Shown here: positions 1,795-64,000 of the stretch, piece after piece
Numbering within the stretch: the first letter of the stretch is position 1
How the letters are laid out: each line of letters begins with the position of its first letter
Assembly: GCF_000002425.4 (NCBI RefSeq)
Contig: NC_037267.1
Span: forward strand, 7,019,396-7,083,395
Source of the DNA: Physcomitrium patens
Lineage: Eukaryota > Streptophyta > Bryopsida > Funariales > Funariaceae
Reading direction: 5' to 3'
DNA length: 64,000 nt
Position numbers and translations under genes: made by a program
Notes under the pieces: generated by a model
What the model saw: the letters and a program-made list of their open reading frames with translations, nothing else
Told to the model about the DNA's origin: nothing
Databases searched by the model: none

Positions 1795-2730
1795 CTAGAC
1801 AGGGATCTTCATTCCTTCATCAGGGATCTTGTCCAGTACCGCTGCGTCGCGTTCAGCTTCGCGCTTCCATTTCATGCTCAGGATGACGAAGGCGATGGCC
1901 ACGAACACCCAGTACATAATGTAAGAGACGAGTGTGCCCACGGTCGCCTCATCGCGCCAGCCCACGATAGCATTCAGAATTTTCCAGATGCCATCCTTCT
2001 TGTGGTGGCAGCAATGCAGTTTCCATAAGATTTTTTCGTTTTCGGTGTATTCCTCAAACTCATGCACGGCGCCAGCAAACAGTCCTGCGGCTACAAGGAA
2101 AAGGAGCGCAGTAGATCCGACCAGGAACCACTTGAAGTTCATTTTGTTGGAGCCCTTGTACATCAAGTACCCGGCAAAGATCCCGCACAGCGCTCCGACG
2201 ACTGCGGGAATGGGGATAGCAGTGCCAGAGCCCTCGAGGCCCACTCCGCCGAGGAACACAACTGCTTCGACTCCCTCCCGAAGCACAATGCTCAGGGGCA
2301 GAAGGAACAGCGCGTACTTGCTGCGCTTGCTCTGTACCTCACCCTGCTTGTTCAGGGTCTCCACCGTCACCTTGGTGAGCTTCTTCTCCCACTTGGCCCT
2401 CCATGTGTCCACGCGAATCATGGAGAATCCCATGATGGTAATCAGCACTACAGCAATGAGCGACAAGATCCCCTCCCAGAGAGGCTCTGAGCTATCCCAC
2501 GCTTCCTTGGCGACCGTGTAGTATAATGAGATGAATATCGTAGCGATGATCAAGGACAAGACCACTCCAGTCACTACCCCGAGCCATACATGCTTCTTCA
2601 TCCGCCGCCGCAAGGATGTCTCCTCCACAATATTGTCAATCAGCACCATCATCACTGATAAGATGATTGCCGCCTCCAGCGTCTCCCTGAAGAGGATGAA
2701 GAACGCCGGCACATTGAAGAGCTGCACCAT
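1795..2730 (-). CDS. FTR1: High-affinity iron permease, FTR1 family
   Basis: A single-exon ORF of 311 residues. The FTR1/OFeT family moves Fe3+ through the plasma membrane, in fungi together with a multicopper ferroxidase. Both family signatures of the REXXE type are present: RETLE at residues 15-19 in the first membrane helix and REGVE at 151-155 in the fourth. About seven hydrophobic segments can be seen (roughly 10-32, 50-72, 86-106, 140-160, 172-190, 200-222, 264-285), with a charged linker at 108-138 and a charged C-terminal tail. The protein is shorter than fungal Ftr1 (about 400 aa) because the tail is short. The start is the first ATG and there is no in-frame candidate close upstream. 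The coding region is markedly more GC-rich than its flanks. No ferroxidase gene lies in the window. Flowering plants generally lack FTR1, so its presence points to an alga, a bryophyte or a transferred gene. Confidence 0.88.
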   Translation of the reverse strand: MVQLFNVPAFFILFRETLEAAIILSVMMVLIDNIVEETSLRRRMKKHVWLGVVTGVVLSLIIATIFISLYYTVAKEAWDSSEPLWEGILSLIAVVLITIMGFSMIRVDTWRAKWEKKLTKVTVETLNKQGEVQSKRSKYALFLLPLSIVLREGVEAVVFLGGVGLEGSGTAIPIPAVVGALCGIFAGYLMYKGSNKMNFKWFLVGSTALLFLVAAGLFAGAVHEFEEYTENEKILWKLHCCHHKKDGIWKILNAIVGWRDEATVGTLVSYIMYWVFVAIAFVILSMKWKREAERDAAVLDKIPDEGMKIPV

Positions 2731-3300
2731 CTTGACAAGCTGGAATGATCACACAGAAACACACAAATTGACAGGAATGTGTCGCAGCAGCGCCTCAAGT
2801 TCAGCTTAGCTCAACCTCGCCACGACCCACTACTCACTTTCCTCGGGAGGGTGATAAAGGAGGCACTGGTACGTGCGTGCCGGCACTCCGGTACTGTACT
2901 CAACTAGGACCTGACGTGACAACTCAGAATGCCTTGGATATCATATGGGAATCCAGCAGTGGACTTATACTAAATCGAGGTTATCCGAAAAGAAGCTTGA
3001 AAGTTACTTTTGGAAGCACTTCCTACAGGTTTCTAGGGAGTCCACTTTCCCCATTTTTTGCGGCGCGAACCCAATTAGCGACGTTGACTCAGTGTGGCGA
3101 ATGGAATGCGTTTATGGCCGGCTTAAGCGTCGGAGAAAGGATATTTGAGACTTGTGTTGGAGAAGAGTATGTTTTCTCGCGAGGTGTGGGATGTGCAACT
3201 GGGTGAGGAGCGGTCGGGCACGCGCGGGGAAGCACGGGCGTGTGCCGACTTCATGCTTCGCACACCTAGGAATGTGACTGTCCCTGTGTAAAGACATTAT
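2731..3300. other. Upstream region of FTR1, no gene assigned
   Basis: This should hold the FTR1 5' untranslated region and promoter, read on the minus strand. A weak TTTATCA-like element lies near 2850. Short ORFs on both strands have no recognised similarity. Confidence 0.4.
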
Positions 3301-5440: not shown

Positions 5441-7233
5441 AAACTGAATGCAACAACTTGTGGTCTTGATCACTTCGAAATATATTCGTTTCATAGTTCT
5501 GTCGTTTTTCTAAAATCTGCAGCAGTCTCCAAGATGTAGTAAATTGCAATGGTATTTTTATTGTTAAGTCTAATTGATTTTACTTAGCATGTTTAATATA
5601 TACTGAAAATATTTTTTCATCTCTTGAACTAGTTACATAAATAAATATGTACCTTTATAGCTAACATCTGATTGCATACACATCTATAGAAAATACAACA
5701 ATAAGAATGAAGTTTTGTTGAAAGATTTGGGGAAGCCCTCAAAAAGGTTGATATTTTTGGAGCAATCTTGTATTTATTTTGAATGTAACTTCAATAGTAA
5801 TTGGAAAGACTTTTTGTTTATTAAATAGTTTCTGAAGTCTCTTTTATGAGGCTTTGGCTGTATAAGATGAAACTTAACTAAACATTTACATATAAGAAAG
5901 GTTTTGATTTGCTATCACTTAATCAAATTGTTGGAAATGTTTTTTTAACTATGGTATCCACAATTGCGCGACATTTTAGACTTTTTTTGTGGTATTTTTT
6001 TTAAAAGTAAAATTTGCATTAAAAAGAAAGTATTCTTTGAAAATCACATATTTTTAAATGTAAAGTTTATTTTAAAATTAGATCTTCTACAGGTTACAAA
6101 ATATTTTAAAATAAATTTAAAGATACATGATAAAAATACCTTATGGTAGTGTACAAGTTATAGTTAATGCCAAAAGTACTAATAACTTTAAAAGAGCCAA
6201 AAAATCCTCAGTGTGAAATAGGTTTCATCTCCCTTTATATTTGGTTGGCTATAACAATTTAAGTCCTCAAGTAAGTTTGTAAAAGGAGGCATGTAAAAGG
6301 AAAAGGAATTGTAAATAAAAGTAAATGAGAAAAAAAAGGGAGTGGGATGGAACACTTCTGAGATAAAGTAGTGTAGTTAGAGTCACAGCAAAAGAGATGG
6401 TTTCACATCTGATTTGAATTACTTTATTTGTTTATTTATTTTTTTCTGATAAGTGAACCTGATGTTGGCAACTCCACTGAGTCAACACACTCATTCATCC
6501 ACTGATGGCACCGGTAAGTGGATGGTACACATTCATCCATAATTCGTACACGAGTACCTTTCGAGAATCCTTGTGCACCGACACGAGGTGCAGGATCAAC
6601 CATGTTCGGCGTCAAGATTGACGTGAAAAGGGTTCACTAGTGGGTCACTACGATGTGAAGAATATGTAAACATAATTAGAGTTTTGTAGACAGAAGGCTG
6701 TCAGTGTGCTGTGCGTGGAGAACGATCTCAGTTCGATCTCATTCCGTGACTGGTTCACTAGCAGGAAGCGGTGGATCTACACCGACACCGATCAATGGAT
6801 TGGGTTTATTGGGAATGTGTATCAGTGAAGGACCGGATCGCTTCGTGATCAGAACATGCTTCAGACTTGCGATGAACTTTGAAGAATTTCTCAACTTGTG
6901 AGATCATAGATATGTTCCTGGGACAATGTGAGATAAGCGTCGTTCGGGGGAGAAACCTGTACTAGTTCGTGAAATGTAAGGGCAGAGTGAGGAAGAGTGT
7001 TGAGGAGACGAAGATCATCGATCATGTTCCACTTACGTAGAGACACAACTTGACAACAGCGTGAATCGAAAATGAACCCAATCGGGCTATATGGCGACAG
7101 CAAAGGTTCACCGGCGAGGTAGTGAGCTGATAGACCTGTCTTAAATGGAGTTAGGAGTACATAAACAATTTGTTTGGTTTTACTTTACGTGCCCATTTAC
7201 CTACGATCACCAAGAGCACTAAAGAACGTTGCA
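5441..7233. other. Mostly AT-rich intergenic stretch
   Basis: From 5450 to 6450 the sequence is strongly AT-rich with no coding signal. From 6460 to 7230 it becomes more balanced but still gives only short, unrecognised ORFs. The right end probably includes the 3' untranslated region of the cyclophilin-like gene that stops at 7234. Confidence 0.5.
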
Positions 7234-9231
7234 TCATTGCTCCATTGCTCTTTGTGCGTCAACGTGGACAAGTCTAATGTTCACAGGTTTGTCAAGAACC
7301 TGAATCGGTACCCCTTCCCAAGTAGCTGTAGTTGTCGGCAGTTCTGCAAGGGTCTCAATGAGAGATATGTCATCATCCGCTACAGTTGCGAAAACCGAAT
7401 GCTTGCGAGGCCACTCCACATGGTCTGCCAAGCTAATGAAAAAGTCGGGCCCTCCACCCAACCAACCTACCATGCCTCTTAAAATCGCAGGCGTGTATTC
7501 TTTCGGAATTTGTTTGAAAGGAACATGGTGAGCCTCCAGTGTGCCTTGCACAACCGCATATGGCGGACCGGTACTCCTCATCTGGAGTGTAAAGCATTCA
7601 AATCATGAGCCTTATCGTAACCTTGCAGGAAGAAACCTCACACTAGAAGCGATTCCACTACGGTTCAAGCACATAAAACTATGAGACATCTTTGCAAGGC
7701 TAGGTGCGATCCCTAAACTCGACAAATACCAATGGTTTGATGTAAAACAGGTTCGGACAGTCATTCCACTGAGGTGTCATTTTCTGTTTACCTTGGAATT
7801 GTGACCACCGTAAGAATCCCACAGTCCCGCACGTCCCTCCGCACGATAAAAGCGACAGCCTGCGCAGTGGGTCAACTTGGCCAGGTCCAGTATTTGCAGT
7901 ACCGAGCTTGGTGCACAATCAGGAAGCAACTGCATCCATTTGCCAGTACCTTTATTCGAATAAGAGACAGAGAGGAATGACCAACCACAGATTGACATTC
8001 TAGAACATGTTGCTTCAAAGGAATTGTGATGACGCACTCCCCACCCTCTCTGCTTTCTATTATTTTTTTGTGGACTATGAGTTATTACCTTCAAGTGTAT
8101 GAGTTGTCCGCTCATGGTGCCATTGTCAATTGAGAGCCCCACAACGGCCTGCAACAGGAAGAAGAATGTCCAATTAGATTATTGTGTCCTTCGACGAGCT
8201 TGCCGTAAACCGCACACGTTGTGCAGCTATGCCATTCATTGTGATTGACTGCTCGGCAGATCCATCTACACTAATTGGGATTCGAGTGCCTTGAGAGCTC
8301 TAAATTGGTAAACCCATTGCATACACACATTTAAATTAAGACGTTCAAAGGTATTCTGTAATGCAGACGTGTTATTTGAAAATTAACTGAAAGTTTAAAA
8401 GGGGAGAAATATTATACCATATCCTTGTCGAGCACTAGCCCAGAAGTCCAAGGATTAGATGGGCCCGAGTCATGACTTTCTGGATCGAGAGAATTCTTCT
8501 GTCTCTTCAACCAACACTGAAACAGTAACATGAAGCCAACAAACCGACTTTCGTCAGCCATCAAAGAATGGTGCACGGAAGGGCCAACAGTCTTCGCGGA
8601 AGACAAGAAACTGGCAATAGGAAAAAAGCAAGATTGATGAAATCGCCCTAAAATACAACCTTGAACCCAAAAAATCACATACTTCAGAAACTTTTTTTCT
8701 TTTTTTTTTCTTTTTTTTTCTTTTGTTCAGTAGCCATGAAAAAATTAAAAACTCACGTGTACCGAAAAAGATGAAGAAAGTATTATCTAAATATTAAAAA
8801 AACGGCAGGGAGTGGTTCCAGACGATAGGAATCACCTGACGATAGAAGCTCCCACAGTTTGCTTCATCAGCGCAATGTACCCAGGAATCGCACGTTGGAT
8901 TCGTTTTACAAGCGTTGCAGCATTCTTGCGCCGTATCGAGAAGAAAGTCATTGCCCCAGTTCACAGCATCGCCCCACAACTCCGTGTGCTCTATACCCCT
9001 ACAGCATCCTGTTCTATTATTGTCTAGATGCTGTCGTGCTACATGCGCAAGAGATGCCTGTGAAAAAAATAGATTGAAGAGTAGGGGGCGAATGAAGAAA
9101 TACGCTGCCAAGCAGGTGCAGACAGTCAAAAGAAGAATGAGAAAGGATCGCCATCTTCTTTCACCCGCATGCATCCGTCTCGCCATAGCTTCACCACAAT
9201 TGATCACAGGGACCTGAATCCAATTTCGCAC
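7234..9231 (-). CDS. Membrane-anchored cyclophilin-like protein
   Basis: Five exons on the minus strand, all introns phase 0: 9231-8836, 8516-8418, 8148-8089, 7929-7792 and 7581-7234. Together they give 346 residues. Residues 29-50 are one hydrophobic helix after a basic stretch, suggesting a type II membrane anchor. A Cys-rich section follows (about 74-140, with CC pairs and CDSWVHC). A cyclophilin-like fold runs from about 166 to 346: LLPDCAPSSV, CRFYRAEGR, GPPYAVVQGTL and KHSVFATV match the order of cyclophilin strands. The usual catalytic FHRVI and QGG segments are altered, so peptidyl-prolyl isomerase activity is uncertain. Plant proteins with this anchor, Cys-rich section and cyclophilin-like order are known, but I cannot name the subgroup. 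Every donor is GT and every acceptor AG, and the frame closes without a stop, which supports the model. An alternative start is Met16. Confidence 0.8.
8690..8722. repeat. T-rich tract in intron 1 of the cyclophilin-like gene
   Basis: An interrupted poly-T tract (poly-A on the coding strand) within the 319-base first intron. Confidence 0.7.
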
Positions 9232-40300: not shown

Positions 40301-43300
40301 CGCAGTGACTTTGCAGAGGCTCTCCATCTTCAGATCTGCCCGTCTTCTGGTAGTGTTGCGGTATGTTCTACTTTACTGAAACATCATCTTCCCCTTTGTA
40401 CGTGTCGTACGACATAACATGTTATTGGAAACTGAATCATTAATTCGTCCACAGTCCATTAAAAACACAGACGTTAAAAAGTTACCACAAAAATTACTCT
40501 TGTTAACAGGATCTCGTAATTCTGTTAACCTTCTTTTGGTAGCTCATAAAATACACCAAATTCTTGCTGAACATGGTTCTTGTAGTTGATTACTCGGGGC
40601 AGCTATGTGCTGAGTCAATCGTAGGCTGTGGATCTGCATCAGAGACAAGATCAGATGAATTATCTTAGGTGTTCCAAGTTCGTCAACAACCCAGAAGTTT
40701 GAATTGACACATGTAAGGAGGCTAGAACCAAGGCTTAACTTACTAAAATCACCTAATTTCTAATGTTAGCTTTCTTAAATCCAACCTGAATGCCCGGTTA
40801 GGGAATAAAAGAATAATAACATGTTCCATACTTAGTGCCTTTTGAGATGCACACTTAAATTGAAGTCTTGTTGTGAGTGAGCAGGATGCTCCATTGTTGA
40901 GCTTTGTTCGTGATGGGCATGAACAAAAGCTGTTACAATGGAAGAATGAGAGAGAGCAATCTGAACGCTGGAAGCGGTTGGATCAGTCTAGGCAGTCTGG
41001 CAATGACGAAGTGGGTGCAACTGAGGGTGCATTGCAGGCGTCAAATGAGTCCGAGAAGATCGAGGTGGACGCACTATCCAAGGTAAATTGTGTAGGTTAT
41101 GTTCTTAGATTTACAGCTGAACTTCAATGGGTACTTTGTACCGTTCAGCATCGACACAACAACTTAATGATCACAGCAAGGAAACGATTTACACTTTCTT
41201 TTTAGTAATAAGAGTACGTACTCCAGAGCATATGCACACCAGAGACAGTGATACAGATGATTGAGTCTCATCAAAGATTTTCATTACAAAGGACTTCCCC
41301 ACCATCACTGCGCCTAAAATTCCTGATTTTTGTTTTTTTATCACTAACGTACCGACATTATTTGTGTTCATCATTTATTGTGTAGTATGCGCCACATTCA
41401 TACTTTTAATGAACGAGCATACGTCTGCAACAGGATAACAAGAGGGCTGGTCTTTCCGTAGTGGAATGAACTGCTTTTTACTGTCAGCAGAGGAAACGTT
41501 GGTATTTACAGAATTTTCCTGGTCCTTAAAAGTTGCCTGCGGAAATTGAACGCAGTCTGTTCAATAAATGCTAGAATGGACGTCATGCTGGGTGCGCCTA
41601 CTGAAGTTCGACCTTGTGGGTCATTCGTTAGGTGGAGGAAGTTCCACATACTTCAGGAGAAGCTACTGGGCATAATATAGAAACCACTCCAACTGCAACA
41701 GCGGTGATGAAGACGGAGGATGTGAAAGAGGATTCCGTTCAGCGTGATGGAACTGCCCAGAGTGATGTCATTGCCTTCCAGCGCGTCTCAACAAAGTTGG
41801 AGACCCATAAAATTGAGATTAAGTCTGCAACTATGGTGGTAAAAGAAGAGGTAGAATCTAGAAGCGCCAATGTCACAGAACGAGAGGACATAGGAAGAGG
41901 GGAACAAGAAAGTGGAGGGGTGACTTTTGGTGGAATGGGGACTCCGGCAACGAGGAATAGTAGGGATCGTGAGCCCTACAGTAGCGAACATGGGGATGAA
42001 TCTCAGCCCAAGAAACGGAAGAGGAACATTATGAGCGATAAACAAGTTAGTGTAATGGAAGCGGCTCTTCAATTTGAACCAGAAATGCAGCGTAGTCCAA
42101 AGTTGATCCAGCAATGGACTAATCATCTAAATTCAATCGTAAGTTCGTTAACGTAAAATTCAATCGCTTTCGCTTTTGTTTTTCTTCTAATTGTTTTTGG
42201 TTTTAACACTCGTATCGACTGCTACAAGTTGTTGAAATAGGATGCTGACATTGGAAACTTGTAATCATTTGTCTTGCATTTTCACTTTTTGAGAGAAATG
42301 GTGATGATTGTCTAATCTATGTCAGGGACCGGAGGTAGCGTATCATCAGCTAAAGAATTGGTATGTCATTGGATGGCACATTTGCTCAGTTTGAGTCTGA
42401 AGTTAGTCTCCTCCGAATTTTCACCTGAGATGAAAGTTCATTTGTTCTTTCTTTTATCGTTTAACTCCTTATACGTCGAGACAATGTCACAGGGCAGCAT
42501 CTCTGAATGGTGTAAAAAGTTGAAAACATTGACTTGCTGGGGTTCTCAAATTACGGTTGAAGCTCCCTTGTGCGTTTTGGACCTCATGGTTCTGAAAGCA
42601 TGGCCATATAGTATCTGATAGACCCAGAAACTGACGAGTGAAAGATTGTGCATGCGCCTTTTCCTGATATTATCTAATTCATCAGATTCTCCTGAAGAAT
42701 GTGATTGAGACGGCGATCAATTAACCCTTCATCTCATACTGTAGTAGTCATGTTAAAACATTCGTGGGTTTGTTGCATTAAATTACATCCTTTTTACTCC
42801 GCAGTGTTGTGGTTTGTATTGATTGAAAGTTGGTGAGCTTGGCGTGTGGCAGGCTGAACAACCGGAAAGCCCGTATCGCCAGACAAGAGCGTGAAAAGCA
42901 GCGTCAAGAAGAAGGGGATGCCCTCATGACTCGACCTGAAAAGTCTCTCCCCGCTCGATCTGTCGCCTCCGATGACATGGATAGTCCTGCAGAGACCTCA
43001 CCGCGGTTGAAATATGACGATATAGATCAAGGAGAGGTTATTCCCTTAAAGTTGTCCCTTCAAGTTTCTAGAACACCCTCAAATGCTGGCAGTGAAGGTG
43101 AGCCACACAATTCTAGTAACAGTTTGGTAAGAAAGTGGAAGGGTGGTGATTATGTGAGCTTGCGGAGTAAGAGCGGTAAAGACATGGCTGTAGGAATTGT
43201 TCTCCAAGTAGAAGGCTCCTGGCAGGGACATAGTCTAGAGGAGGAAAGCTTGTGCCTAGTTCAAGTGTCGGATCTTAAGGTAGACAGGACCTCGAAACTC

Positions 43301-43450
43301 CCGTTCCCTTCATCAACGACAGGCTCTTCATTTGAAGAAGCTGAAACCGTACTTGGTAAAACCCTTGTTACCTGGGACGTCGACCACATGTGCATGGTGA
43401 CAAATATGTCTACACCACCGCTCGTAAAAGTAGTAAATTCTACGTCGTGA
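34315..43450 (+). CDS. NDX: Nodulin homeobox protein NDX
   Basis: Seventeen coding exons: 34357(or 34315)-34377, 35024-35149, 35600-35755, 36202-36285, 36608-36736, 37128-37352, 37582-37713, 38025-38120, 38360-38524, 38736-39051, 39509-39634, 39945-40014, 40306-40360, 40885-41082, 41632-42138, 42326-42360 and 42853-43450. All phases join, giving 1012 aa from ATG 34357; in-frame ATGs at 34330 and 34315 would add 9 or 14, below an in-frame TAA. NDX is plant-specific; the Arabidopsis protein binds single-stranded DNA at the FLC 3' end and stabilises an R-loop. A long helical N-terminal region is followed by an acidic/basic linker. The homeodomain (about 762-826) has helix 3 NWLNNRKAR, shared by three exons including one of 35 bases. 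The C-terminal NDX-B domain (about 909-1000) includes GSWQGHSLEEESLC and FEEAETVLGK. Exon 9 ends at a weak-looking donor (ATT|GTGCGT), but the join keeps the expected spacing to RWCGG. Confidence 0.92.
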
Positions 43451-43876
43451 ACCTGCAGATTGACATCCTTTTTGTACATGCCTTTGTGTACATGACATGT
43501 GCATATTTAATAGACTCAGTTTTGGAACGGACACTAGTACACGAGTTTATGCTACTCAGACGCACACAACCTTCTGATGCACCAGCGGTAATTAAGCTGG
43601 TTCACTCTCTCTAATCAGAGACCGTTTTTATTCTAATTTACTAGTTCAATCTCTTTCTGTTTGATTCGTTGACTCTTTTCTAGTGGTAGATGTGAAACAT
43701 TCCTCTACTCTTTTCTTAAGCATTAATGGTAGTGGATATGTCATTAGCGGTTTTATATTGTACTTCTCAAGTCCTATAAAAGTGTAGGACTTGCTTCTGC
43801 TAGTGCTCAAATCCTCATAGCATGTGGACTTGATCCCAAGTTTTAGTGACCAAGCTTACGATCAAAAGCCACATGC
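43451..43876 (+). other. NDX 3' region up to the palindrome
   Basis: Probably the NDX 3' untranslated region and terminator. A 12-bp inverted repeat (43816-43827 with 43869-43880) straddles the outer edge of the left palindrome arm. Confidence 0.5.
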
Positions 43877-44482
43877 TATGTGAATTAGAGCATAATATTG
43901 AGCATGACATGCACTGTGAGAAACCTGTTCCTGGGCAGCGAGGGGCATTTGCTCAAGTTTCACCAATTGCGTTGAAAACCAGCTCAGTGAAAAGCGGGCG
44001 TCGATGATTTCATGATTAACCAGTTTCTAAACCTACATTTAATCCAACACTAAATCTAATGACTTAAAATACCTTTACATAGAAACAAACCTTGAAACAC
44101 TAAAGTTGCAGTTATGTGACAAAGTTGGGGCACATGGGTGGATCATTTGGTGTGAACTAGTGAAGCAGCATAATGTTAGGACCGATTCCGACCTCATTAG
44201 CACCAATTTCATGGTCTCACTAGACGCAGAAAACAAAAAACAAAATCAGTTTGTAGAAGACAACAATGTTGATGGAAGTATGCTCCCAACAGGAAGCAAT
44301 GGATTGTTGGTCATTTCCAGCATTGTACAAGTGGATACGTTGATACGCTGGTACTCATGTGGGCAGTAGCTTGTTTGGTGTGAGCATGTGAGGCAGTGGG
44401 ACAGACCCAACGGAAAGAATCAAAAGCCGAAGCGGAGCAGGTTCCAACAGAACGGAAGGAGAGGAGGAGAGGGAAGCTCTGG

Positions 44483-44534
44483 AAAAAATTTGGACCATTT
44501 CTCGATTTGTGCGTGTCATCCTTGCGCAGGGGCC

Positions 44535-44566
<32 letters not shown>

Positions 44567-44586
44567 TCAGATGTCTCCGAAGAGAC
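44483..44586 (-). ncRNA. U6: U6 spliceosomal snRNA, copy A
   Basis: The minus strand from 44586 reads a full U6 snRNA. It has a 5' stem-loop (GTCTC-TTCG-GAGAC), then GATAAAATTGGAACGATACA, the invariant ACAGAG box followed by AAGATTAGCATGG (the U4-pairing AGC region), and the ending GAAATGGTCC followed by AAATTTTTT. The T run at the end is the RNA polymerase III terminator. U6 is the catalytic snRNA of the spliceosome. The gene faces the centre of the palindrome with its 5' end and is transcribed away from copy B. Confidence 0.97.
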
Positions 44587-44610
44587 GCAATCTTTACGAT
44601 CACTACCGCT

Positions 44611-44618
44611 GTATATTT
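44611..44618 (-). promoter_or_regulatory. TATA-like element of U6 copy A
   Basis: AAATATAC on the minus strand, 24-31 bases before the U6 start, as in plant pol III snRNA promoters. It is identical to the copy B element. Confidence 0.65.
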
Positions 44619-44641
44619 CTACACTCTTGTGCCACGCCATC

Positions 44642-44652
44642 CCTTATGGGCT
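44642..44652 (-). promoter_or_regulatory. Candidate upstream sequence element (USE) of U6 copy A
   Basis: AGCCCATAAGG on the minus strand resembles the plant USE (RTCCCACATCG) at 7 of 11 positions. It sits about 23 bases before the TATA element, the spacing typical of pol III-type plant snRNA genes. Confidence 0.45.
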
Positions 44653-44673
44653 CTCTATCGCTCGCCAGCATTC

Positions 44674-44969
44674 ATTCGTGCATGCGGCATCGGTCTTGCC
44701 ATCACGTCGGCATGCTCCACGATGAGAAGGTGTCGATTGTGCACAGAATGCAGTGTGGTGTTCCCACAACCAAAATCCGAGACCTGGGTTTGTTTCAACA
44801 TTCGAAATCTGGGTTCGACGTAGAGCGAGGTGGCCAGAGCAGACGTTAGATAATAGTATGTACAGTTGTCGCCTTCCCCTCAATGGTTTGCATCGATGAA
44901 AAGACCTTCGAGGATGAGACACCACAAACAACTAGTGTAACAACAGGCAGATGATGGACAATGTGCGTA
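44674..44969. other. Unique 296-bp spacer at the centre of the palindrome
   Basis: The non-repeated sequence between the two arms. With the inner arm ends it forms the shared divergent promoter region of the two U6 genes. No ORF or tRNA was recognised in it. Confidence 0.85.
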
Positions 44970-44990
44970 GAATGCTGGCGAGCGATAGAG

Positions 44991-45001
44991 AGCCCATAAG
45001 G
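44991..45001 (+). promoter_or_regulatory. Candidate USE of U6 copy B
   Basis: AGCCCATAAGG lies about 23 bases upstream of the TATA element and 56-66 bases before the U6 start. It is a diverged match to the plant USE. Confidence 0.45.
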
Positions 45002-45024
45002 GATGGCGTGGCACAAGAGTGTAG

Positions 45025-45032
45025 AAATATAC
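45025..45032 (+). promoter_or_regulatory. TATA-like element of U6 copy B
   Basis: AAATATAC located 25-32 bases before the U6 start at 45057. Confidence 0.65.
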
Positions 45033-45056
45033 AGCGGTAGTGATCGTAAAGATTGC

Positions 45057-45076
45057 GTCTCTTCGGAGACATCTGA

Positions 45077-45108
<32 letters not shown>

Positions 45109-45160
45109 GGCCCCTGCGCAAGGATGACACGCACAAATCGAGAAATGGTCCAAATTTTTT
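45057..45160 (+). ncRNA. U6: U6 spliceosomal snRNA, copy B
   Basis: The same sequence as copy A, on the plus strand, starting GTCTCTTCGGAGACATCTG and ending in a T run. Compared with the common plant U6 start (GTCCCTTCGGGGACATCCG) one base pair of the 5' stem is changed from C-G to U-A by two matching substitutions, and one loop-side C is T. The catalytic core (ACAGAGA, AGC) is unchanged, so the gene is likely functional. Confidence 0.97.
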
Positions 45161-45766
45161 CCAGAGCTTCCCTCTCCTCCTCTCCTTCCGTTCTGTTGGA
45201 ACCTGCTCCGCTTCGGCTTTTGATTCTTTCCGTTGGGTCTGTCCCACTGCCTCACATGCTCACACCAAACAAGCTACTGCCCACATGAGTACCAGCGTAT
45301 CAACGTATCCACTTGTACAATGCTGGAAATGACCAACAATCCATTGCTTCCTGTTGGGAGCATACTTCCATCAACATTGTTGTCTTCTACAAACTGATTT
45401 TGTTTTTTGTTTTCTGCGTCTAGTGAGACCATGAAATTGGTGCTAATGAGGTCGGAATCGGTCCTAACATTATGCTGCTTCACTAGTTCACACCAAATGA
45501 TCCACCCATGTGCCCCAACTTTGTCACATAACTGCAACTTTAGTGTTTCAAGGTTTGTTTCTATGTAAAGGTATTTTAAGTCATTAGATTTAGTGTTGGA
45601 TTAAATGTAGGTTTAGAAACTGGTTAATCATGAAATCATCGACGCCCGCTTTTCACTGAGCTGGTTTTCAACGCAATTGGTGAAACTTGAGCAAATGCCC
45701 CTCGCTGCCCAGGAACAGGTTTCTCACAGTGCATGTCATGCTCAATATTATGCTCTAATTCACATA

Positions 45767-48700
45767 TGCTCAAATGCTCAACTCGAGAGAGGCATAGCTT
45801 ATTTATTTATCTTGTTTTTCTTCTGGTTTTGGAAGAAACGACAATTGTTAAGGTTGACTGTATAGTTTGGACCATGTTGGTGAGGAATTTAGTCTTGAGA
45901 AAGTGGTATATGTTATCTTGAGTATATTGACAGTGTTTAATTTCATTCAACTATGTGCTTGACATGTAGGAGGTTAAATTAAGTCCAAGTTATGCTACTT
46001 TTAGCAGTGCATGTTGTTTTAGTAAGGATGGCTGCATAGGACTATGTAAGAGATGTTTTTTGAACTTTTATTTAATTGATTAGGTTTTTTGGATAAGGTT
46101 AATTAAACACAAATTCAATATTCAAATATTTTGTAAAGCATTCTTTAATTCCAAATTCAAGAAGCATTTTGTTGAATTTTTCCTTGCCATTGAACCAATT
46201 ATGTAATTTGAAGTTTATTCAGATATATAAAGAACAATTATGAGGATATAACTTATTTCAAATTTTATTCTATAAATACAAATTCTGTGATATTTTCTAA
46301 AAAACTAATAAGAGACAAAAATTCTTCCTAAGTTGTATACTTTGGTATGATAAACTTACAACTACAAGCACATTACATATGATCATCCCTAGATACTTAC
46401 ATCATTAGATACTTACATCCCTAGATTTGAAAAAGATGTTTATTTTTATCACTGAAAAAACCAACAATGATAACATCATTCTAGCTTTTCTATAGTACTA
46501 GTAATTAATCACATCCTCTTCATCAACTTTATCTCATAATATGATTTCTGAGATTAGCAAGAATATTAATTGATTTTGGACCAGATTTTTATTATATATT
46601 TTATAAAAAATATATGCTATGACCATTCTTTCAATAATACATTCACCACTATAACTTGGCACCATGGTCTTTGTCATTTAAATATTTTATCCATTTGCTC
46701 CATGCAATATTAAACCAATATTATATAATTTTTTTCTATTAAAATCCAAAATTTTAACATATAAAGGTTACATCTTTGAGAAACATTTTAGATTATTATA
46801 TCCTACAACATGAGTTATTCAAGCTATAGAATTATTAACTCTTGTACACAAAGACCCCATAGTTCCATGATGATCTAAACCTCTAGTAGTGCACTTCTTT
46901 TCTTTATATTAATAAAGACTTATTTTTTTTTATACTTACATTTATTTTTACAAAAAAAAGAAGTATAATTGGTTTGATCATGTTTTATTTAATATATAAA
47001 TAATTATTGAAAACTATGCCAACAAAAAATCCTTCTTCTTCTATTTTTACAACAATGGTAAATTTACTTAAATGTACTATTATAAATTTTGTATGAAGCT
47101 TGGCATTTGATGCCACTTTACAAAGTTCCAGAATCCAATATAAATTTAAGTTAATGAACATAAAATCCACTTGGCTTCAAAAGATAGTATTTATACTATA
47201 TTAATATTAGATGATTAATTCCAACAGAGATGTTATTTTTATAAGAAAAACACATATTACTTAAACCATAAATTCATTTTTAAACAATTGTATCTTTGTC
47301 ATTCTACTCTAATTCTATTAAATTCTACCTTGACTATAATAGTAAAAACTTTTAAATTTTGCAACCTAAGTTACACAAACTATTCTAAAAATAAATTATA
47401 ACTGCTTTTGATACCTTGTAAAATTACATCTACAAAGAGGATTTATACATACAAGTATTATAGAAAAAAACTAGCCAAATGTATATATCTAATTTTTTTT
47501 ATTAAAAATATTTTGTAATACTTATTTAATATACTATTAAAAGCTCAAAAATCTTTAAAATTTAAAAACCATATAACTCTTTAGTCTTAAAATAAATTGC
47601 ATATTAAAACAAGGACATAATTTATAAGACAATACATGATCTTAATAAGATAATTTTGTAGTAGAATCTAAGTGCACAATTCTCACTGTAATTTGACAAA
47701 TTTATTTTTTGATACAATCTCTTCTTTTATAATTTTCTTCTATGTTTTTGAGATTGTCTTGTTTCTTCTGAAAATGTTGAGCAATTTATTTATTTTTCTA
47801 TAACATAAATTCAAATGTTCTTGCTGATATTGGGTCTTTTCTTATTTCGTAAGAAACTTAAATTTCACATTATCAATTTGCATTTCTTTTACTTTTAATT
47901 GTACATGCTGTAAGATTGTAGCTAACACAACAATATTTTAAAACCAACAGAGTATAATTTCAAAAATTATATGAAAAAAACCGAAAAAATATATTTTAAT
48001 TTCATTAAAAACTAATTTTTATTTAGTAAATAAATACTAAAAATGAATTCAAGAATAGTTTCTTGAGGTCACATTTTAATTTGATATATTTAATAATATT
48101 CATCTTTATGTCAATTCTTAGCATCTTTATTAGTTAATTATTGATCTTTAAATTAATTAGTTAATTTTTTGCTACTTAATTCAAATTTATTGCTACTTAA
48201 CTACTAAAATTGCATCTTTCTTTCTAAATGTATATCAAATTTTTTCCACAAATTCATGTAATTTATAGGATATTATTTTTTTTTATTGATGTAAAACCAA
48301 GAAAACCAAGGTAAAACTAGTTTTATTGAGTAATGTTTTAATAAACTTGACTTAATATGTTGAAATTGGATAATGTTGTATATAAAGTTTATAAATAAAT
48401 TACACCTAATTGATAAATCCAAAAAAAAATTAAACTATCATTATTAAATTCTTTAAAATAAACTCTTTTATTTTTTAAATATATATCTCTATATTTTCAC
48501 TAATAAAAAAAATCTAAAATATAATAATTATTAAAAAGACTCCTATTATATTTATATCTTTATATCTTTTTATTCTAAGTTTGGTTATGGTACTAAATAA
48601 AGTAGAACTGTCAGAAGCAAAACATTCTTATTTGTTCTTTTATTTGTATTCTAAAATTAGAATTTTAAAATTTAATTTTATAGAAAAAATAACTATAAGA

Positions 48701-59996: not shown

Positions 59997-61840
59997 TGTC
60001 GTATTATAACACGACTATATGGTAAAAGATGATAATATGGATCTTATAATAGAAGTGCGAAGTTAAGAGAAAAGGTAGAAAAATATGGATAAAAGATAGG
60101 AAGGTAGTAAAACTTTTAGTAGTAATGCTGCCCTTTTAAAAAAAATAGCTTCTACTTATTTTGTAGGGCCAAAAATAAGGCAAAATAAGGTAGATTGGAA
60201 AACTAAATGATATAAACATCTTTAGAAAGAAGTTAAGAGTAAATTCTAGTAAAAATTACTAAAAAAAACCTAGATGTTGATATCCGGAGAGGGCCAGTTA
60301 TGAACCAGGGTCGAAATCAGACCCTGAGGCACAAAACTAGGTCTCGACGACGACTTCCGGACTCTTTGGCAGATTGGAAAATCAAGTTTGATAGAAGATT
60401 GAATAGGATTTCTATGGATGTTGATTTTGGGTGATTTGGATCTGTATTGACTTTGTAATAGCTTTGCAAAGTCAAGGTTTGTTTCGGATGACTTGGATTT
60501 TATGAAATAAAATAGGATTTATGTTTTGGGTGATTTCAAGAGTTTTGTAATAGATCTATGGGTGAAATTTTGTGGATTTATGGTTTTAGTTGTGTTTAAT
60601 ATGTGTCGCGAATTTGAGCTTGATCTAATGATTAAATTGAGGGATATTGAGGTTTAAGTGGATCAAGGTCTCAGAAAGTAGAATTATAGGTCTAATAGGG
60701 ATTTTTAAGATTTCGTGCAATCTACTAGTTGGATTGGAATGAAACTTATGTGAGAGGATATTAGACTTGTTTTTTTTATGTGTATTAGAATTTTTAAATC
60801 AATCAAACGGTGTAAAGAAGAGATATTGGCTCTGGAAGATTAGCATTAAGATTGGAGAAGGAAGCCGGTCAATACCCGAGCACATTTTTGAAGTTATCGT
60901 CAATTTGGTAACTCCGATCTTTTTCAATTTTTTTGTGCTTATTTTGAACTTAGTTTTTAAGAAGTATATAAAATTTGAATTAAGATCAACGGTTTATTTA
61001 TTAGTCATTGAAGTTTAAATTTGTTCTAGGAATTACTAGGGTTTGGTTTAGGGTTTGGTTAGGGTTTGGTTAGGTTTTGGTTTAGGATTTGGTTTAAGGT
61101 TTGATTAGGGTTTGGATTAGGGTTTGATTTAGGGTTTAGGATTTAGGATTTGGATTAGGGTTTGTTTTAGGATTAGGGTTTGGTTAGGGTTTGATTTAGG
61201 GTTTAGGATTTGGATTAGGATTTGATTAGGATTTTTTTAGGGTTTATTTAGAATTTAGGATTTGATTAGGATTTGATTTAGGATTTAATTAGGATTTTAT
61301 TTAGGATTTAGGATTTGATTAGGGTTTGGTTTAGGATTTAGTTAGGGTTTTATTTAGGATTTAGGATTTGGTTAGGATTTGGTTTAAGATTTAAGGTTTG
61401 TATTAGGATTTGGTTTAGGGTTTGGTTAGGGTTTGATTTAGGGTTTGGTTTAGGATTTGATTTGGGTTTGGTTTAAGATTTGTTTAGGATTTGATGTAGG
61501 GTTTAGGATTTTATTAGGATTTAAGATTTAATTAGATTTGGCCTGAAATTTGAATGAAGTTCAATAGGATTTTAACTAAAATTAAATTAAGATTGAGTTG
61601 AGATGTATTTGAATGATAATTGTGATCGTTCTAATATTTTTTTATGAATTCTTATTGTTTGTTAGAAATTTCTTTGAAGTTTTTTTTGAAATTGATTAAG
61701 CTTGCTTAATATTATTATGGTCTAATTAGAGCATTATTAATATTTTATTAGAATTAAGATTTTGTTATTATAATTTCCATTCTTCCTTCCACAGCTAGGT
61801 GCTCAGAGCATTCTCAAGTAAGACTTCACGTAATACGATA
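59997..61840. mobile_element. 1.84-kb insertion inside the reverse transcriptase, possibly a solo LTR
   Basis: The insertion begins TGTCGTATTA and ends TAATACGATA, so the termini are inverted repeats with one mismatch. The flanks are GCGA on the left and GCGG on the right, a probable 4-bp target duplication with one change. Removing the insert and one flank copy joins DGSLR to [10 protein letters not shown] in frame as in intact elements. No integrase or transposase ORF is inside. TG...(C/T)A ends and short duplication suit a solo LTR; a non-autonomous element is an alternative. It contains the telomere-like array. Confidence 0.75.
61037..61530 (+). repeat. Degenerate telomere-like minisatellite
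   Basis: About 500 bases built from units such as TTTAGGGTTTGGTTAGGG and GGATTTGGTTTAGGATT, related to the plant telomere repeat TTTAGGG but with a TTTGGT insertion and many GGG-to-GGA changes. It is G/T-rich on the plus strand and lies inside the inserted element. Confidence 0.85.
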
Positions 61841-63239: not shown

Positions 63240-64000
63240 CTATTATATATTGAGAGATGCTTATATGTTCCAGAAGATGAAGCTCGATTACGTGTTCTTC
63301 AAGCTTGTCATGACTTTTCAATAGTAGGACATTTTGGATATAGTAAAACTTTGGAATTAATATCTAGGAATTTTTGGTGGCCCCAAATGTAGAAGGTAGT
63401 CAAAGATTTTGTTTAATCTTGTGATGTTTACTCAAGATCAAAAACTCCTCGCCATCAATCTTATGGACTTTTTCAACCATTATCCATTCAAGAACAACCA
63501 TGGTCTTCTATTTTTATAGATTTCATCATGTATCTTTCAATCTCACGTTCTTATGATTCTATATTCATGATAGAAGATCGTTTTACCAAGATGGTACATT
63601 TTGTACCATGTATAAAATCTATCACAGGTAAAGATATAGCTAAGCTTTTTTTTGACAATATCTATCGCTATCATAGATTATCCAAGGATATTATATCAGA
63701 TAGGGAAACTCAATTTGTATCAAGATTTTGGCGGACTCTTTTGAAGATTCTAAAAGTAGATATAAAACTATTTTCGACATTCCATCCTCAAATTGATGGA
63801 CAAACAAAGTGTGCTAATCAAGTTTTGGAGCACCATTTAAGATGTACCATCAACTACCAATAAGATGATTGGACAACGCTTTTGTCATTCGTAGAATTTG
63901 TTTATAATAACATGGTATATTCTTCTATAAAACAAACACCTTTCTTTGTCAATTATGGTTATCATCTATGACTTGATACTTTTGACTTTTCAAAAGCTGA
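63240..64000 (+). pseudogene. Gypsy integrase pseudogene, truncated by window end
   Basis: The zinc domain shows the His pair (CHDFSIVGHFG) but the cysteine pair reads CDVY in place of CxxC. The core has FIDFI, ISDRETQF and GQTKCANQ; the last position that should be the catalytic Glu is Lys. Several stops are present. The domain continues past the window. Confidence 0.85.

Follow-up and report, generated by a model that had tools for sequence, protein, structure and literature searches.

Sex-chromosome palindromes, such as P6 of the human Y chromosome and those of willow, consist of gene-bearing inverted arms that have become near-identical by intrachromosomal conversion, according to the available text of the two reports (PMC3723533; PMC7023750). 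In the moss Physcomitrium patens, tandem genes have been described as unusually alike and gene conversion has been suggested (Lang et al., 2008, as cited in the accessible part of PMC3045890). For moss U6 or snRNA genes, a literature search on inverted repeats, duplication and conversion returned no paper on a U6 palindrome by title or abstract, subscription journals lying mostly outside the search.

Here, an inverted pair of U6 snRNA genes is described on chromosome 15 (chr15) of P. patens, within the window (the whole 64-kb stretch of DNA analyzed, chr15 7,019,396-7,083,395), together with three similar pairs elsewhere in the genome. The likeness to human Y P6 and the willow palindromes lies in nearly identical inverted arms that carry genes. 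In contrast to those systems, the moss arms are much smaller (0.8–2.6 kb), lie on ordinary chromosomes and contain U6 snRNA genes, and conversion in the moss is known from sequence comparison in one genome only. With the tandemly arrayed genes of P. patens, the pairs share the species, the unusual likeness of neighboring paralogues and the proposal of conversion; the arrays, as presented in the accessible source, comprise protein genes, whereas the present pairs are inverted, contain non-coding U6 genes and include, on chr12, a step from an old outside to an identical inside. Homogenization of palindromes by conversion is already known, and the moss U6 pairs appear to be a new instance. In our reading, to which we give a probability of roughly 60%, the chr15 locus would be an inverted duplication of U6 with its promoter and downstream DNA, whose arms have been kept identical by gene conversion.

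The inverted repeat on chromosome 15

The features of the locus are as follows (window coordinates).

43877..44673, no strand: left arm, exact reverse complement of 44970-45766
44484..44586, minus strand: U6 snRNA gene of the left arm (RF00026, 113.4 bits)
44612..44616, minus strand: TATA-like element of the left gene, mirror of 45027-45031
44642..44651, minus strand: USE-like element of the left gene, mirror of 44992-45001
44674..44969, no strand: unique centre, 296 bp, single genome copy at E<=0.001
44970..45766, no strand: right arm, exact reverse complement of the left arm; order common with the chr24 relative
44992..45001, plus strand: USE-like element GCCCATAAGG of the right gene, -65 to -56, in the register of ACCCACATGG elsewhere (e.g., L012)
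45027..45031, plus strand: TATA-like element ATATA of the right gene, -30 to -26, in the register found in L012
45057..45159, plus strand: U6 snRNA gene of the right arm (RF00026, 113.4 bits), same sequence as the left gene

Self-alignment of the window gave 797/797 reverse-complement identity between 43877-44673 and 44970-45766 around the 296-bp centre. The original prediction that the arms match base for base far outside the U6 genes was borne out, with no arm differences, and the uniqueness of the centre was confirmed by a genome search in which the centre gave one copy. Its term "perfect palindrome" holds for the arms, which are perfect; strictly, the 296-bp centre makes the structure an inverted repeat and not a gapless palindrome. 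Each arm comprises the 103-bp U6 gene, preceded by 87 bp and followed by 607 bp. Under a crude random model, the log10 of the number of such identities expected by chance is about -444. When the arm was used as query against the 470-Mb genome, two full copies were found, both at the chr15 locus. Gene-carrying inverted arms of at least about 98% identity, by which gene-conversion palindromes are recognized, are thus present on chr15 at 797/797. The pair is the sole inverted repeat of at least 150 bp in the 64-kb window (BLAST, low-complexity masking), and a sample of nine random 10-kb stretches, the first of 100 drawn from this genome, contained none of that length (0/9). Folded as a single strand, the repeat pairs with itself, as every inverted repeat must. 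With a 296-bp centre, cruciform extrusion from duplex DNA is unlikely.

Inverted arms that each contain a U6 gene resemble a foldback arrangement, as would result if U6 had been carried by a mobile element or a dispersed repeat with inverted ends, and a direct match of 13/14 exists between 43804-43817 and 45767-45780. This match scores 12.0, below the shuffle mean of 12.8, and its left copy lies off the arm edge; being no better than shuffles, it was rejected as a target-site duplication. An origin from a mobile element, which we regard as extremely improbable, was rejected because the genome holds no further full copies of the arm or the centre and the longest ORFs of the arms have no Pfam match.

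Beyond the arm edges, neither the outward flanks nor the two halves of the centre gave alignments better than those of shuffled sequence, and no diverged homology was found there, so nothing outside the chr15 arms dates the duplication. These sharp edges would also fit a single, very recent inverted duplication, in which a copy of 44970-45766 was placed about 300 bp upstream in inverted orientation, template switching in replication being one possible route, and has not yet diverged. Substitution rates of 5–9.4e-9 changes per site and year were assumed. At these rates and in the absence of conversion, 0/797 differences would place the duplication at less than about 0.2–0.4 million years, an age into which a recent event fits; if conversion is at work, this bound on the age of chr15 is removed. 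We consider a recent duplication possible, though on the unlikely side, and the points that bear on it are given with the loci below.

U6 genes and their promoters

The two divergent U6 genes expected in the arms were recovered by Rfam RF00026 and point apart, and both cover positions 1-105 of the 105-position model with 113.4 bits, against an Rfam gathering score of 44. A single U6 gene on chr1 (L012) has ACCCACATGG and TATATA at positions equal to those of the chr15 elements. We take GCCCATAAGG and ACCCACATGG to be the plant USE, and ATATA and TATATA to be the plant TATA element, in name and in role. The full U6 sequence, the promoter elements at -65 and -30 and the 3' T-run (TTTTTT) give the chr15 genes the RNA polymerase III layout of plant U6 genes, with USE and TATA in fixed register. 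They differ from plant U6 genes in the variant USE, as GCCCATAAGG matches ACCCACATGG at 7/10 positions, and in their setting within a perfect inverted repeat. Both genes would be transcribed by RNA polymerase III.

U6 loci across the genome

In release V1.6 of the P. patens genome, 213 snRNA genes were annotated (available portion of PMC3729371). The present list of U6 loci is based on a DNA search with the chr15 arm, which marked 21 places and gives a lower bound. The window and 16 fetched loci were compared with the Rfam gathering score as cut-off, which was reached by 19 U6 matches (2 in the window and 17 in the fetched loci). Eight of these 19 make up four inverted pairs.

chr15 pair: diverging genes; arms 797 bp, 100%; centre 296 bp
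chr12 pair (L010): converging genes; arms 2,090 bp, 99.3%; centre 152 bp
chr2 pair (L021): diverging genes; arms 1,534 bp, 98.4%; centre 1,976 bp
chr1 pair (L016/L015): converging genes; arms 2,561 bp, 99.8%; centre 10,227 bp

In all inverted U6 pairs with a spacing below 15 kb (4/4), the identity is 98.4-100% and extends over 0.8-2.6 kb, far past the 103-bp gene. The original statement that U6 copies elsewhere usually differ in their flanks holds between loci, where the similarity is mostly about 54-64% in the 300 bp downstream of U6 (exceptions being chr24 vs chr15 at 72% and L013p vs L011 at 80%) and 50-86% in the 70 bp upstream; it fails within the four pairs, where both flanks are 99-100% alike. 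The two arms of the chr1 pair have one U6 variant in common, and the chr2 pair has a diverged U6 with one base different between the arms. Copying is local, because every pair has its own flanks and the chr1 and chr2 pairs also have their own U6 variants. On a recent duplication, all four inverted U6 pairs would need to be young, and among the loci compared no inverted U6 pair of middling divergence was seen.

The arms on chr12, chr2 and chr1 also bear on whether one chr15 arm is a false inverted copy, produced by a chimeric clone or a misjoin during assembly. Arms without differences are indistinguishable by sequence, which such an artefact would also produce. Against it, the 64-kb window is without N, and the arms at chr12, chr2 and chr1 differ at some bases, so that each entered the assembly as a sequence of its own. 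As the main phase of the moss is haploid, no merging of two haplotypes is expected. The artefact, which had been raised as a possibility, is on these grounds less likely than a duplication, and we hold it to be improbable.

The U6 promoter used for genome editing in P. patens is given as chromosome 1 5050300-5050621 by Collonnier et al. (accessible part of PMC5253467), and in the arm search a U6 match starting at C1:5,050,622 directly abuts its end, which identifies the genome searched as that of P. patens; the assembly is taken to be version 3. As described in that part of the source, this U6 (chr1, 5.05 Mb) is a single gene, whereas the chr15 genes form an inverted pair. A U6 pattern search of viral_contigs gave no match.

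Differences between arms on chr12, chr1 and chr2

In the chr12 pair, only 2 substitutions and 2 indels (one of 4 bases and one of 8 bases) separate the arms over 2,090 bp, and these are confined to L010 3110-3333, while the inner 1,546 bp are identical. Just outside the arms lie mirrored segments of 67% (200 bp) and 77% (74 bp) identity, in preserved order, with scores of 98.3 and 65.0 bits against 30.1 bits for the best of 100 shuffles. These segments were not found in direct orientation, and a genome search with the 200-bp segment gave exactly two places, the mirrored pair. The outer segments indicate that the chr12 inverted duplication is older than its arm identity, and this argues against recent duplication as the general explanation. 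A pattern that is old outside and identical inside is a signature of gene conversion between arms, and overwriting of the inner part of an old inverted duplication would explain it.

Matches to the chlorophyll a/b-binding family (PF00504) were found for ORFs in both chr12 arms, and the outer segments may be the 5' exons of this gene pair; of the outer ORFs, one was tested and gave no Pfam match. The left chlorophyll-binding copy (L010:2775-3445) is broken into two reading frames near the 4-base indel relative to the right copy.

In the chr1 pair, all 6 differences fall within 11 bp at the inner edge, and the other 2,546 bp have none; no diverged homology that could date the duplication was found outside its arms. 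The chr2 arms have 24 differences, of which 8 are in the 31 bp of the outer end, 8 in the 80 bp of the inner end and 8 between. Beyond the chr2 outer end, similarity is about 63% over 64 AT-rich bases, which is weak and proves little.

Gene conversion as the preferred explanation

Conversion is favored because the four pairs, a small number, are at 98.4-100%, flanks between loci are mostly at background and the chr12 duplication is older than its arms. The original prediction, which named a recent inverted duplication or active gene conversion, is supported by the genome comparison, with the latter favored. Conversion would then be acting at chr15 as at chr12. In the proposed mechanism, a U6 gene with its 87-bp promoter and 607 bp of downstream DNA would first have been duplicated in inverted orientation. 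Arm damage or stalled replication would be followed by repair templated on the mirror arm at a distance of a few hundred bases, and such repair, by repeatedly copying one arm onto the other, would keep the arms identical. Homologous recombination repair is presumably the agent. Homologous recombination is described as very active in P. patens (available portion of PMC3729371).

The chr24 relative and the probable ancestral order

A locus on chr24 (L009) with one U6 gene (94.1 bits) is related to part of the chr15 structure. The stretch upstream of its U6 is 69-79% like the centre at 44808-44960, and the right arm at 44991-45502 is 73-74% like L009 and colinear with the centre match; L009 has about 400 extra bases between its centre-like and arm-like parts. 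Because L009 is colinear with both, the order of centre and right arm is probably ancestral, the left arm being the inverted copy. This refers to the order and not to the side next to the neighboring NDX gene, since the centre would be inverted by a crossover between the arms. A relative with one U6 only, whose order follows part of the centre plus the right arm, also speaks for a recent inverted duplication.

Other inverted repeats and controls

Near-identity is not specific to U6, since two inverted repeats lack U6 in their arms. L012 has a 997-bp repeat of 99.7% (5987-6981 and 7204-8200), which ends in a stretch of 801 N next to the chr1 U6 that supplies the promoter for genome editing, and L017 has an AT-rich 1,782-bp repeat of 99.8% (26-1807 and 6358-8137) that flanks a U6 gene. 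Both could mean that recent inverted duplication is frequent, and the N run at L012 that such repeats may trouble assembly; the L012 repeat is possibly an assembly problem, and part of the near-identical inverted repeats may be recent or artefactual. Among the 16 U6 loci, older inverted repeats of 72-89% are present at L015, L019 and L024, so that homogenization is not universal among inverted repeats. The only close direct U6 pair (chr10, L013) is 83% identical in the gene and 57% downstream, and it provides no fair control for orientation, since neither flank is a copy of the other.

In a control search with U2, the four best matches (68-127 bits) were dispersed. Matches of 119 bases to the U2 model at 52-58 bits included two inverted pairs of equal score, one on chr20 and one on chr12, each with a spacing of about 6 kb.

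C20:5875944 and 5882275; C12:5871508 and 5877671: weak U2-model matches, inverted
C23:11019992-11028008; C60: weak U2-model matches, direct series

Possible significance of inverted gene pairs

In a haploid-dominant, largely selfing moss, inverted gene pairs might serve as local units of copy correction, in which essential multicopy genes such as U6 would be preserved intact with the mirror arm, and not a homologous chromosome, as template, much as in human Y palindromes, and the pairs would be retained for this reason. We put this forward as a doubtful speculation. If the arms are indeed kept identical by conversion, this would explain how dispersed U6 genes can remain functional in local pairs even as their loci drift apart, and P. 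patens would become a small, easily edited plant system for the direct measurement of inverted-repeat conversion. It would also call for caution, as one guide RNA or primer pair hits both arms.

Neighborhood of the repeat

The left neighbor of the repeat is an NDX gene with Nodulin_N, HTH_NDX and Nodulin_C domains, which ends near 43450.

42827..43450, plus strand: last exon region of NDX (nodulin homeobox), outside the repeat (Pfam Nodulin_C, 1.1e-31)

A relative of NDX is found on chr9 (79%). A shared chr9 copy from before the duplication was rejected, as the similarity to chr9 stops at 43534, short of the arm, and the arm search gave no U6 on chr9. Elsewhere in the window, an intact-looking ORF for an FTR1 iron permease lies at 1795-2748 (minus strand), a family that is to our knowledge rare in land plants. 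A match to the Integrase core at 63417-63863 (plus strand) falls just under the Pfam cut-off and is probably a retrotransposon remnant. A degenerate tandem array of telomere-like units resembling TTTAGGG occupies 61011-61523, and the nearby stretch 60040-61120 is 75% like chr24 L009:65-1138.
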